Assembly (NCBI RefSeq): GCF_002848345.1
Contig: NZ_CP025429.1
Span: 4,402,001 to 4,466,000 of the forward strand
Direction: 5' to 3'
From: Chromobacterium sp. ATCC 53434
GTDB lineage: Bacteria > Pseudomonadota > Gammaproteobacteria > Burkholderiales > Chromobacteriaceae
Length of the DNA: 64,000 nt
Every line of letters begins with the position of its first letter. Positions within the stretch are counted from its first letter, which is position 1. Shown here in pieces: positions 1-57,320 of the stretch. Under the pieces are notes generated by a model that was not told the origin of the DNA, searched no databases, and saw only the letters and a program-made list of their open reading frames with translations. The translations under genes were made by a program, and so were the position numbers.

Positions 1-100
1 AAACGGCGGCCTCGCCCACCATTTCATATTTAAAATCAGACTAACCTTATATTAAAAATACGGCCGTTGTTATCGCATCCGATGCGAAACCGCCCCGCCA

Positions 101-37963: not shown

Positions 37964-38286
37964 GCGAATGGCAACACTGGGCGGTCATCGCCGGCATGCT
38001 GGCGGCCACGCTGGCAATACGCGCGAGCTTCCTGGTCTTCGGCCAGCGGCTGGCCTTCCCCGGCTGGCTGAACCGCGCGCTGCATTACGTGCCGGCGGCG
38101 GTGCTGTCGGCGCTGGTGGCGCCGATGGCGCTGGCTCCGGCCGGCAGCATCGACCTGTCCTGGCGCAACGCCTATCTGGTCGGCACCATCGTCGCCATCG
38201 CCGTCGCCGTCGCCTGGAAGAACGGCAAGACGCTGCTGGCCATCGTCGTCAGCTTCGCCGTCTACGGCGCGCTGCGCTGGCTATAG
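37960..38286 (+). CDS. azlD: AzlD-type branched-chain amino acid exporter subunit
   Basis: A 108-residue protein with four hydrophobic helices, the small partner of AzlC. The ATG overlaps the azlC stop codon (ATGA), the normal coupled arrangement, which shows that the second frame of azlC is the original one. The RASFLVFG and LHYVPAAVLSALVAPMAL segments are typical of the family. Its stop overlaps the convergent NSS transporter gene by 6 bp. Confidence 0.92.
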   Translation: MSEWQHWAVIAGMLAATLAIRASFLVFGQRLAFPGWLNRALHYVPAAVLSALVAPMALAPAGSIDLSWRNAYLVGTIVAIAVAVAWKNGKTLLAIVVSFAVYGALRWL

Positions 38287-39594
38287 ATTGTAAACCAGCA
38301 CCAAGCCGATCAGCAGCGGCGCCAGCCAGCGGCAGGCGACGCGCATCAGCGCGGCGGCCGGCGCCGACAGCCGCAACTCGTCCCGCACCGCCGGCCAGGC
38401 CACCCGCCCGGCGAACAGCGCGGTGCCGATGCAGCCCAGCGGCAGCAAGACATTGGACGCGGCATAGTCCATCAGCTCGAAGGCGTTGCGGCCGAACAGC
38501 CTGTAATCGGCCAGCGGGCCGAAGGACAGCGCCGCCGGCACGCCGGCCAGGAAGGCCAGCGCGGCGACCGCCAGCGTGGTCTTGCGCCGGTCCGCACCGA
38601 ATTCGTCTATCGGCAGGATGGCCACCACCTCCAGCAGCGACACCGCCGAAGTCAGCGCCGCCATCAGCAGCAGCGCGAAGAAGGCCGTCGCGAACAGCTG
38701 GCCGTACGGCAGGTGGTTGAACACCACCGGCATCACCATATAGGTCAGGCCGGGACCGGCTTGCGGGTCAAGCCCGAAGGCGTAGATCGCCGGAAAAATC
38801 ATCAGGCCGGCCAGCACCGAGGTCAGCGCGGTCAGCCCGGTCACCCACAGCGCGGAATTGCCGAGCCGGGTGTCCGGCCCCAGATAAGAGCCGTAGGCCA
38901 GCATGCAGCCGGCGCCGACCGACAGCGAGAAGCAGGCCAGGCCCAGCGCCTCCACCAGCATCGCCGGCGTCAGCCTGGCGAAATCGGGCCGGAACAGCGC
39001 CTCGACGCCGGCCATCGCGCCCGGCAACGTCAAGGCGCGGACGAGCAGCGTCAGCATCAGCAGGAACAGCAGCGGCATCAGCAGCTTGCCCATGCGTTCG
39101 ATGCCCTTCTGAATCCCGCCCGCCACCACCAACAGCGTCAGACCGGCGAACAGCGCGTGGGTCAGCAGCGCCTCGGCGGGATTGCCGACGTACTGGCCGA
39201 ACAAGGCGCCCAGCGCGCCGACATCGTCGCTCATCACCCGGCCGTCCAGCGCGCGCAGCAGATAGCCCAGCGTCCAGCCGCCTACCACGCTGTAAAAGGA
39301 AAATATCAGAAAGCAGCACAGCACGCCGCCGTAGCCCAGCAGCTTCCAGCGCGGCGAGCCCAGCCGGGCAAAGGCGCCGACCGCGCCGCAAGCGGCGGCC
39401 CGGCCCAGCGCCAGCTCGGCCTGCAACAAGGCGAGGCCCAGCGTGAAGGTGAAGGCCAGATAGACCAGCAGGAAGGCGCCGCCGCCGTTCATCGCGGTGA
39501 CGTAGGGGAATTTCCAGATCGAGCCGAGGCCCACCGTGGCGCCGGCCGAAGCCAGAATGAAACCGAGGCGGGAACCCCATTGCGTGCGTGGCAT
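38281..39594 (-). CDS. NSS-family sodium-dependent transporter, probably for tryptophan
   Basis: A 437-residue neurotransmitter:sodium symporter family protein with about eleven membrane helices. Helix 1 carries the family motif SAGATVGLGSIWKFPY (about residues 16-31), which forms the sodium and substrate sites. Bacterial relatives such as LeuT, MhsT and TnaT import hydrophobic or aromatic amino acids with sodium. The gene's leader encodes a peptide with three Trp codons, so tryptophan is the likely substrate. The ATG at 39594 follows AGGAG, which sits in a small 6-bp dyad (39597-39602 with 39605-39610). Confidence 0.92.
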   Translation of the reverse strand: MPRTQWGSRLGFILASAGATVGLGSIWKFPYVTAMNGGGAFLLVYLAFTFTLGLALLQAELALGRAAACGAVGAFARLGSPRWKLLGYGGVLCCFLIFSFYSVVGGWTLGYLLRALDGRVMSDDVGALGALFGQYVGNPAEALLTHALFAGLTLLVVAGGIQKGIERMGKLLMPLLFLLMLTLLVRALTLPGAMAGVEALFRPDFARLTPAMLVEALGLACFSLSVGAGCMLAYGSYLGPDTRLGNSALWVTGLTALTSVLAGLMIFPAIYAFGLDPQAGPGLTYMVMPVVFNHLPYGQLFATAFFALLLMAALTSAVSLLEVVAILPIDEFGADRRKTTLAVAALAFLAGVPAALSFGPLADYRLFGRNAFELMDYAASNVLLPLGCIGTALFAGRVAWPAVRDELRLSAPAAALMRVACRWLAPLLIGLVLVYNL

Positions 39595-39644
39595 GACAAC
39601 TCCTGAGTTGAAACGATTTGCCGCCGCACGGGGAGAAAAACTGG

Positions 39645-39762
39645 ATACGACAAGGCCGCCCGTGACGGCGGCCTGGAAAGCGGATGTGAACACTCCTGGC
39701 GCGCCGGCTTAGCCGCGCCACCACCAATATTGGGTCTGGAGTGAAATAATCTGCTTCATCAT
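39645..39762 (-). promoter_or_regulatory. Putative tryptophan attenuator of the NSS transporter
   Basis: On the minus strand, a short leader ORF with Trp-Trp-Trp codons is followed by a hairpin starting in the Trp codons (GGCGCG with CGCGCC, 39702-39718 region). About 30 nt later comes a perfect 8-bp hairpin (39653-39660 with 39667-39674). This is the order of a ribosome-stalling attenuator. The last hairpin lacks an immediate T run; a TTTTT appears about 12 nt later, so termination strength is uncertain. A TTGACG -35-like element is at 39793-39798. Confidence 0.7.
39709..39759 (-). CDS. Trp leader peptide MKQIISLQTQYWWWRG
   Basis: A 16-residue ORF (17 with an ATG one codon earlier at 39762) ending in TAA, with three consecutive TGG codons followed by Arg-Gly. 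This matches the form of trp-operon leader peptides and is too short for routine gene finders. It lies about 115 bp upstream of the NSS transporter start and 50 bp after the aroP stop codon. Trp is the rarest codon in these genes, so three in a row in a 16-codon ORF is unlikely by chance. Its ribosome site is weak. Confidence 0.75.
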   Translation of the reverse strand: MKQIISLQTQYWWWRG

Positions 39763-39813
39763 GGTTCAAGCATGCCGGTTAACGCCCTCAAGCGTCAAGT
39801 CCGGCATGCGCGC

Positions 39814-41185
39814 TCAGACGCTCTCATTCGCCAGCCGGGCTTCGGCCGGCCGGGACTTTTTTAGCCGGAAGCCCACCCACAGCAAGACCAGCCAGACCGG
39901 CAGCACATAGACCGACACCGCCATGCCCGGCGTGAACAGCAGGATGCCGAGTATCATCACCATGAAGGCCAGGCAGACCCAGTTGGACAGCGGGAACCAG
40001 AGCGACGGGAACACCAGTTTCTGGCCGCTCTTCGCGCGGCGGAACTTCAGGTGGGTCAGGCTGATCATCGCCCAGTTGGTCACCAGCGCCGCCACCACCA
40101 GCGACATCAGGATGCCGAGCGCCTCGCCCGGCAGCAGGTAGTTCAGGATCACGCAGGCGAAGGTCGCGACGGCGGAGAACAGCGTGGCGTTGACCGGCAC
40201 GCCGCGCTTGTCCAGCCGGCTCAGCGGCTTCGGCGCGTTGCCCTGCTGCGCCAGGCCGAACAACATCCGGCTGGTCGCGTAGACGCAGCTGTTGTACACC
40301 GACAGCGCCGCCGTCAGCACGACGAAGTTCAGCGCGTGCGCGGTGAAGCCGGCGCCTATCTGCTGGAAGATCATCACGAAGGGGCTGCCGCCGGCGGCCA
40401 CCTTGTTCCACGGGTACAGCGACAGCAGCACCACCAGCGAACCGATGTAGAAGATCAGGATGCGGTAGATCACCTGATTCACCGCCTTCGGGATGGTCTT
40501 CTGCGGATCGGCCGCCTCGGCCGCGGTCATGCCTATCAGCTCCAGACCGCCGAAGGAGAACATGATCACCGCCATCATCATGAACAGGCCGCCGAAACCG
40601 TGCGGGAAGAAGCCGCCGTCGTTCCACAGATTGCTGACCGAGGCCTGCGGGCCGCCGGTGCCGGACAACAGCAGATAGCCGCCGAAGGCGATCATGCCGA
40701 TCACCGCCGCCACCTTGATCAGCGCGAACCAGAATTCGGTCTCGCCGTACGATTTGACGTTGGCGAGGTTGATGCCGTTGATGCAGACGAAGCACACCAG
40801 CGCCGTCAACCAGGTCGGCACATGCGGCCACCAGTACTGGACGTAGGCGCCGACCGCGGTCAGCTCGGCCATGCTGACCAGCACGTACAGCACCCAGTAG
40901 TTCCAGCCGGACAGGAAGCCGGCGAAACTGCCCCAGTAGCGGTAGGCGAAGTGGCTGAACGAACCGGCCACCGGCTCCTCGGCCACCATCTCGCCCAGTT
41001 GGCGCATGATCAGGAAGGCGATGAAACCGGCGATGGCGTAGCCGAGTATCATCGAGGGGCCGGCCGCCTTCAGCACGCTGGCCGAGCCGAGGAACAGGCC
41101 GGTGCCGACGGCGCCGCCCAGCGCGATCAGCTGGATGTGTCGGTTTTTCAGCCCCGCGCTGCAAACCGGTGTGGGCTTCGCTCAC
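39814..41185 (-). pseudogene. aroP: Aromatic amino acid permease AroP, N-terminal frameshift
   Basis: An APC-family permease closely resembling E. coli AroP, with LGEMVAEEPVAGSFSHFAYRYWGSFAGFLSGWNYWV and SFGGLELIGMTAAEA segments and about twelve helices. The only good start is the GTG at 41185 (AAGGAG 8 bp upstream), giving SEAHTGLQRG. The family sequence LKNRHIQLIALGGAVGTGLFLG then continues in another frame. One extra base in the GGGG run (41152-41155, CCCC on the plus strand) explains the shift. An open frame of 420 residues starts after the shift but lacks helix 1. It is a real mutation, a phase-variable tract or an error. Confidence 0.85.
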
Positions 41186-57205: not shown

Positions 57206-57235
57206 GCAAGAAAAAGCCCCGGCCTGGGCCGGGGC
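57206..57235 (-). terminator. Rho-independent terminator of engB
   Basis: A 9-bp GC stem (57216-57224 with 57227-57235) followed on the minus strand by TTTTT, about 85 bp after the engB stop codon. With the rlpA terminator 40 bp away, this closes two convergent transcripts separately. Confidence 0.85.
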
Positions 57236-57320
57236 AATGCCTGGATATCAACGATTCAGGCCCCGCTCAGGGAGCCAAGCGGGAGGTGTGAACACCTGCA
57301 GCTTAGGCGCGGGCCCCGAT

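Follow-up and report, generated by a model that had tools for sequence, protein, structure and literature searches.

A tryptophan-codon leader and probable attenuator before an NSS symporter gene of Chromobacterium, with kindred leaders before trpS and sister transporters

By what means might a sodium symporter gene be controlled when a short open reading frame (ORF) ending in three tryptophan codons lies ahead of it? The question arises in the window analyzed here, a 64,000-nucleotide stretch of the genome of Chromobacterium sp. ATCC 53434, where an initial annotation had proposed a trp-type, ribosome-stalling attenuator that acts on a transporter rather than on biosynthesis. The conserved Trp codons and stems, together with an antiterminator-like fold found in 15/15 Chromobacterium leaders, support that proposal, and the locus is very probably a ribosome-mediated transcription attenuator of the trp type that would answer to the supply of Trp-tRNA and act on a Trp-importing NSS symporter. 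Sequence comparison shows the ORF with its Trp codons, as well as three alternative helices that recur; a start site, termination, stalling and a substrate are what we infer.

The gene behind the leader (38281-39594, minus strand) is an NSS transporter, as annotated, since it matches PF00209 (NSS/SNF) at 203.9 bits against a gathering cut-off of 27. It is MhsT-like, its best solved relative by sequence being MhsT (4us3; E 3.4e-95), and it is a proposed Trp importer on the strength of this kinship, the PF00209 match, its place in a tree and a residue of transmembrane segment 6 (TM6), both described below. A Shine-Dalgarno sequence, AGGAG, stands at 39600-39604, and the same genome carries two other NSS genes, which share 58% and 40% identity with this one. 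Upstream of the leader, in the same direction, lies aroP; in this aroP-like permease gene (39814-41185, minus strand) the N-terminal part is in a different frame from the remainder. Beside the aroP and NSS genes is a gene for a flavin amine oxidase (PF01593; 41443-43131, minus strand), possibly an aromatic amino-acid oxidase, for which no NCBIfam model scored above its cut-off. Elsewhere in the window, the Rfam model RF02837 (anti-hemB sRNA) matches at 57209-57286 on the minus strand (51.4 bits; cut-off 49.5).

The leader ORF itself (39709-39762, minus strand) begins with ATG and encodes MMKQIISLQTQYWWWRG; it comprises 17 codons plus TAA from the first ATG, or 16 from a second ATG at 39759, and its first base lies 168 bases upstream of the symporter's start codon (ATG at 39594). 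The three Trp codons, at 39718-39726, are the proposed stall site; tandem codons for the regulating amino acid within a short leader ORF are a mark of trp-type attenuators, and this leader has them. Unlike E. coli trpL, no Shine-Dalgarno sequence is visible upstream of the window's leader ORF. The annotated ORF, with its three Trp codons and stop, is confirmed. When the 250 bases ahead of the symporter gene were shuffled 20000 times with dinucleotides preserved, no comparable ORF arose (ATG start, 8-32 codons, WWW among the last seven residues), and an accidental ORF was rejected. In the 15 Chromobacterium leaders, the Trp codons are kept and the residues ahead of them vary freely, and the C-terminus consists of the Trp codons followed by Arg and one or two residues. 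It has to be considered whether the hairpins downstream are merely the terminator of aroP, which does lie upstream in the same direction, with the ORF there by accident; we give this almost no credence, in view of the shuffles, of Trp codons that are kept while the other peptide residues vary, and of the recurrence of this plan at trpS and at NSS genes in tandem.

Three helices, formed by four strands of the leader RNA, are predicted on the minus strand. Hairpin 1:2 (39697-39723) has an energy of -15.7 kcal/mol for the piece; helix 2:3 (39666-39706), the proposed antiterminator, reaches -20.1 kcal/mol; and hairpin 3:4 (39653-39674), the proposed terminator, with the tail TGTCGTAT, reaches -18.3 kcal/mol. 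Hairpins 1:2 and 3:4 confirm the two strong hairpins that had been annotated downstream of the leader ORF, while helix 2:3 was not described at that time. Between the stop codon and the end of strand 3, CGGCG-GCC-GG... pairs with ...CC-GGC-CGCCG in all 15 Chromobacterium leaders, and 2:3 is the minimum-energy fold of the piece with strands 2 and 3 in the same 15. Judged by energy, 2:3 and 3:4 are predicted to be mutually exclusive in 15/15 leaders of the genus and in the nine other NSS leaders folded. The arms of 1:2 are invariant in the genus and those of 3:4 across 24 NSS leaders, for which the median z against shuffles was -1.77 (1:2), -1.81 (2:3) and -3.88 (3:4); for 53 trpS leaders, the values were -2.79, -1.63 and -3.65, respectively.

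Covariation was sought in the same helices. Within the genus, no pair of 1:2, 2:3 or 3:4 has changes on both sides, because the paired bases hardly vary there, and of the conserved, covarying stems that the initial annotation had called for, the conservation is thus present in 15/15 genus orthologues and the covariation is not. With RNAalifold on MAFFT alignments, 2/16 pairs changed on both sides in the 24 NSS leaders and 0/8 in the 53 trpS leaders, where 3:4 was missed. When the arms of 2:3 were exchanged between genomes, a leader's own arm was the better one in 8/13 NSS and 13/19 trpS leaders; this is a weak control, as foreign arms pair almost as well. The helices are therefore argued for by their energy, by their position and by the recurrence of the same plan, written in other letters, at trpS. 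The U-tract after hairpin 3:4 is weak in the window, as had been annotated, and a terminator scan did not call the window hairpin; leaders of the Iodobacter type, and many of those at trpS, have a good U-tract.

In the attenuator proposed here, RNA polymerase would start at the leader ATG or a few bases from it, and a ribosome would load on the leaderless end. With Trp-tRNA scarce, this ribosome would stall on UGG-UGG-UGG and cover strand 1, strand 2 would be left to pair with strand 3, and transcription would run on into the transporter gene; with Trp-tRNA ample, it would come to the stop codon and cover strand 2, and hairpin 3:4 would end transcription. RNA that is not translated would fold into 1:2 and 3:4 and would also be off. 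The outputs of such Trp-tRNA sensing would be import, through the symporter, and charging, through trpS.

A start at the ATG is suggested by the promoter region. A candidate -35 element read by eye, TTGACG (39793-39798, minus strand), lies 36 nt before the first leader ATG, and a candidate -10 element, CATGCT (39769-39774, minus strand), lies 18 nt after TTGACG; CATGCT shares only three of six letters with TATAAT, so its assignment as a -10 is tentative. The best promoter candidate is thus upstream of the leader, and a transcription start downstream of 39709, which the initial annotation had named as a finding that would undo its reading, is not what the sequence points to. The distance from the start of TTGAC to the leader ATG is 36-37 nt in 57/57 family trpS leaders, and that to the nearest suitable ATG is 36-40 nt in 28/28 distinct NSS rows, whose selection partly required TTGAC (the Trp-type label demanded it 33-40 nt before the ATG). 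No such condition applied to the trpS set or to 20 of the NSS leaders, all of which have TTGAC at such spacing. This spacing places the putative transcript start on the leader ATG or within about four bases of it, and the leader ORFs are therefore probably leaderless, as in Sinorhizobium trpL. Evidence against the leaderless reading comes from a sigma-70 consensus scan of 39560-39900, which called no promoter at the window leader. An inverted repeat, GCATGCCGG - 22 nt - CCGGCATGC (39770-39809), surrounds the candidate promoter, is largely kept in the genus and could be an operator; an exact search found this dyad at one place in the genome, and its use as an operator elsewhere was rejected.

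The leader recurs before the same transporter throughout the genus. An NSS match at the threshold used is present in 18/19 Chromobacterium genomes and an orthologue of the symporter, 77-100% identical, in 15, and all 15 orthologues keep the leader ORF with at least two Trp codons (WWW in 12; one each has WRW, GWW or AWW). These leaders show no variation in TTGACG, in CATGCT, in the arms of the hairpins or in AGGAG. The alignment proposed in the initial annotation bears out Trp codons and stems alike, in this genus and in others, and the refuting case named there, a lack of such conservation in related species, did not arise. The group-B NSS paralogues lack the leader in 15/15 rows fetched.

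A covariance model of the 15 genus leaders was run on 61 family and 399 order genomes, and among the family-genome matches those made into loci were inspected. Outside the genus, leaders precede the same transporter in G029-G032, G036, G038, G289, G318 and G191. Elsewhere in the family, 6/6 testable group-A genes (at least 63% identity) were found to have a leader with two or more Trp codons, a count that leaves aside G040, whose contig ends at the transporter gene; in a second family, that of G289, a related leader precedes the transporter in 3/6 genomes. Two of these three, the leaders of G191 and G318, have one Trp codon only, preceded by a Tyr codon. Named records supplied leaders at five Iodobacter-type loci (L216, L217, L226, L230 and L234), at two of which, L217 and L234, about 160 extra bases of similar sequence separate the attenuator from the symporter gene. 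Fluviispira multicolorata possesses the transporter (64%) and lacks the leader. Model matches at L053-L055, L058, L059, L062, L067-L072 and L200-L208 were inspected and rejected as leaders; the match at L066 (G428) is a candidate leader. A second model, run on 369 class genomes, gave seven further matches at E <=0.01, none of which was taken as a leader.

The same plan stands before a tryptophanyl-tRNA synthetase gene, trpS, where matches to the covariance model were also located. Upstream of the gene for a 340-residue TrpRS, a leader with WW and then Arg is found in 57/58 family genomes, and WWW in 37; G030 is the exception, and G029, G031 and G032 are without this TrpRS. The trpS leader of the Chromobacterium genome studied here encodes MKIAPAFAIRFWWWRLS, and in the family of G289 a trpS leader occurs in 3/6 genomes. 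A model trained on the NSS leaders alone finds the trpS leader of this genome (E 0.003), and the pattern TTGAC-30..34-ATG-15..45-TGGTGGCG matches at two places in it, before trpS and before the symporter gene, while the reversed control gives one match. No such leader was seen at the four second-type TrpRS genes examined (L102-L105), and trpE of this genome has no leader of the trpS and symporter form. Upstream of trpE at L175 and L182-L192 there is a conserved ORF start, MAFLP..SWRWRR or MRFLPAPTRWRWRH, with two Trp codons; this ORF lies at -172 of the PF04715 match in 12/18 trpE loci of the genus (L175-L192) and is possibly a separate Trp leader.

Leaders for other amino acids accompany the sister clades of the Trp-type transporter, where they are Tyr-rich at nine loci and Phe-rich at two. 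At L078, L083, L231, L236 and L292-L296, such leaders come with terminators before NSS paralogues, some of them in tandem with a Trp-type gene. Examples of the Tyr-rich kind are MLLNSTPTYFSYYYLARQPAARWVAFI in Deefgea and MTNTHPAALCATYYYPVCDLAAGRIVCV in G032, and the Phe-rich ones are MNRNAVFFSFYFMVRPTRAARTVAHN in G030 and MNRDAVFFAFSFMVRPLRAAGTVASF in G031; each is followed by a stop. A GGCCGCC/GGCGGCC hairpin and a TTGAC placed 35-42 nt before the ATG used are present in 11/11 Tyr and Phe leaders, and strands 2 and 3 are predicted to form a helix in all 11, L231 included. Both TAT and TAC occur as Tyr codons, so it is the amino acid, and not the letters, that is kept. In G030 and G031, three tandem NSS genes have Tyr, Phe and Trp leaders, in that order.

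When 72 distinct NSS proteins were placed in a tree, all 28 Trp-leader rows came together with Fluviispira in a single group of 29 (support 100/98), the nine Tyr-leader rows, among them the G031 leader, which has YY only and was labelled by hand, form one group (100/95), and the two Phe-leader rows group together (100/100) beside one gene without a leader. Leader type changes four times on the tree, against a shuffled mean of 31.4. The TM6 residue aligned with the Met of MhsT and the Phe of LeuT is Ala in 28/28 Trp-leader rows, Thr in 9/9 Tyr-leader rows, Val in 2/2 Phe-leader rows and Leu in 15/15 group-B rows, and the symporter of the window, with Ala, differs here from MhsT, a transporter of multiple hydrophobic amino acids whose sensor residue is Met. 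M236 of MhsT and F259 of LeuT are described as a volumetric sensor of substrate (PMC9599917). These rows are related by descent and so stand for few independent events, though they agree with the leader codons. Among the proteins compared, leader type follows the transporter clade and the putative substrate-size residue in TM6. The symporter of the window would be an importer of Trp, a reading to which the sister clades, with leaders for Tyr and Phe, and the residue in TM6 lend indirect support.

Leaders of the tnaC type have a conserved Trp and then, at a distance, a C-terminal Pro, and tnaC controls an operon for Trp uptake and breakdown. A leader of this kind, which would sense free tryptophan and induce uptake when Trp is plentiful, therefore comes to mind for a transporter, but is highly improbable here: the peptide ahead of the Trp codons is free to vary, the leaders end in Arg plus one or two residues and lack the Pro of tnaC, Tyr and Phe versions exist, and control by charging would be natural for trpS.

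Downstream of the terminator, at 39620-39630 (minus strand), a fifth strand is predicted, whose complement lies in strand 3 and the terminator loop. In the swapped-arm test, a leader's own arms were better in 23/24 trpS leaders, with a mean gain of 4.4 kcal/mol, and in 9/13 NSS leaders; against shuffles, the 5% level was passed by 16/18 trpS and 8/11 NSS leaders, the latter count being made without L048 and L052, rows that caught the terminator of an upstream Tyr-type gene. Strand 5 and its partner change together in trpS leaders, for example in L086, L095, L097 and L160. As a predicted pairing partner of the terminator arm, strand 5 is well supported in the trpS leaders, and this pairing would be possible only after read-through, so strand 5 is not the antiterminator.

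Its position, 15 nt from the Shine-Dalgarno sequence of the symporter, bears on whether stalling at the Trp codons might instead control translation, through access to the ribosome site, and not the termination of transcription. Its capacity to pair with strand 3 would suit such control, as would the weak U-tract of the window; folds that reach the ribosome site differ among the 15 species, however, and the good U-tracts of Iodobacter-type and many trpS leaders also speak against it, so that control at this level is unlikely. The initial annotation had seen a hint of it in a dyad around the ribosome site (39597-39610), which finds no support: its energy is -2.6 kcal/mol, its left arm is not kept in L009-L012, and translational control through this dyad was rejected on both grounds.

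Among known systems, E. coli trpL has tandem Trp codons and four strands, with 2:3 set against 3:4, and shares this codon and strand plan with the window leader, but controls biosynthesis. A comparative survey of 2004 reportedly treated proteobacterial attenuators. The scan of Rfam for trp leaders suggested in the initial annotation placed no family over threshold at the window leader, with no match to an E. coli-type trp leader or to the T-box model, and a known Rfam leader or T-box at that level was rejected; the sole match was RcsR1 (RF02552), at 17.1 bits (E 0.31) against a family threshold of 60 bits. RcsR1 shares the position of rnTrpL, the trpL attenuator RNA of Sinorhizobium meliloti (PMC7143759), and rnTrpL begins at the trpL ATG (PMC7298713). 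Like the leader proposed here, rnTrpL is a Trp leader in a transcription attenuator, and its RNA starts at the leader ATG; unlike the window leader, it controls trpE(G) and belongs to Alphaproteobacteria.

Attenuators of trp operons, that of E. coli pheST and predicted ones of Streptomyces trpS are treated in the available part of PMC1262725, which does not report such attenuators for transporters. The Streptomyces trpS and E. coli pheST cases place an attenuator before a synthetase gene, as at trpS here, but in another phylum or for another amino acid. Similarly, the cysS attenuator uORFC-8-2 of Rhodobacterales has tandem regulatory codons before a synthetase gene, but for Cys instead of Trp and in Alphaproteobacteria (PMC8632094). 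The AroR leader of C. glutamicum (Phe-Tyr-Phe) has aromatic codons in its attenuator peptide, as here; it is said to respond to Phe and not to Tyr (PMC11802643), and, unlike the NSS leaders, controls biosynthesis. The words Chromobacterium, trpS, symporter and tryptophan are absent from the main text of a broad attenuator survey (PMC2965389). In the literature covered, which consisted of titles, abstracts and parts of texts and included few subscription papers, there was no NSS symporter under the control of a Trp, Tyr or Phe leader and no precedent for a Tyr-specific attenuator on a transporter.

In weighing attenuation, we counted in its favor the Trp codons kept in the genus and in 6/6 family genes outside it, the shuffles, the 2:3 fold, the same plan in other letters at trpS, the Tyr and Phe sister leaders, the fit of leader type with tree and TM6 residue, the RcsR1 match below threshold and the group-B paralogues without a leader, and counted against it the weak U-tract, the promoter scan, the missing covariation within the genus, the good pairing of swapped 2:3 arms, Fluviispira with its transporter but no leader, the one-Trp leaders of G191 and G318 and the lack of an Rfam family over threshold. 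On this balance, translational control, an aroP terminator and a tnaC-like sensor are each less likely than attenuation by Trp-tRNA.

Bacterial NSS symporters are relatives of neurotransmitter transporters, and their substrates are hard to guess from sequence. If the present reading is true, one kind of sensor would govern both the uptake of Trp and the charging of its tRNA in this Chromobacterium, with trpE left without such a leader. We lean, with some reserve, towards a broader picture for Neisseriales-type betaproteobacteria, namely a family of leaderless, five-stranded attenuators in which three NSS paralogues, at times in one tandem cluster, would each be paired with their own amino acid through Trp, Tyr or Phe codons, and TrpRS with Trp. 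The codons of a leader would change together with a single residue of the pocket, so that the leader would tell the substrate, and strand 5, which once the terminator is read through would pair with both its arm and its loop, would be a layer that the textbook attenuator is without. Such leaders would make up a naturally occurring series of attenuators, probably leaderless, that covers Trp, Tyr and Phe. Each paralogue seems to have its substrate spelled out in its leader, and the TM6 residue follows, which would make specificity in the NSS fold directly testable.
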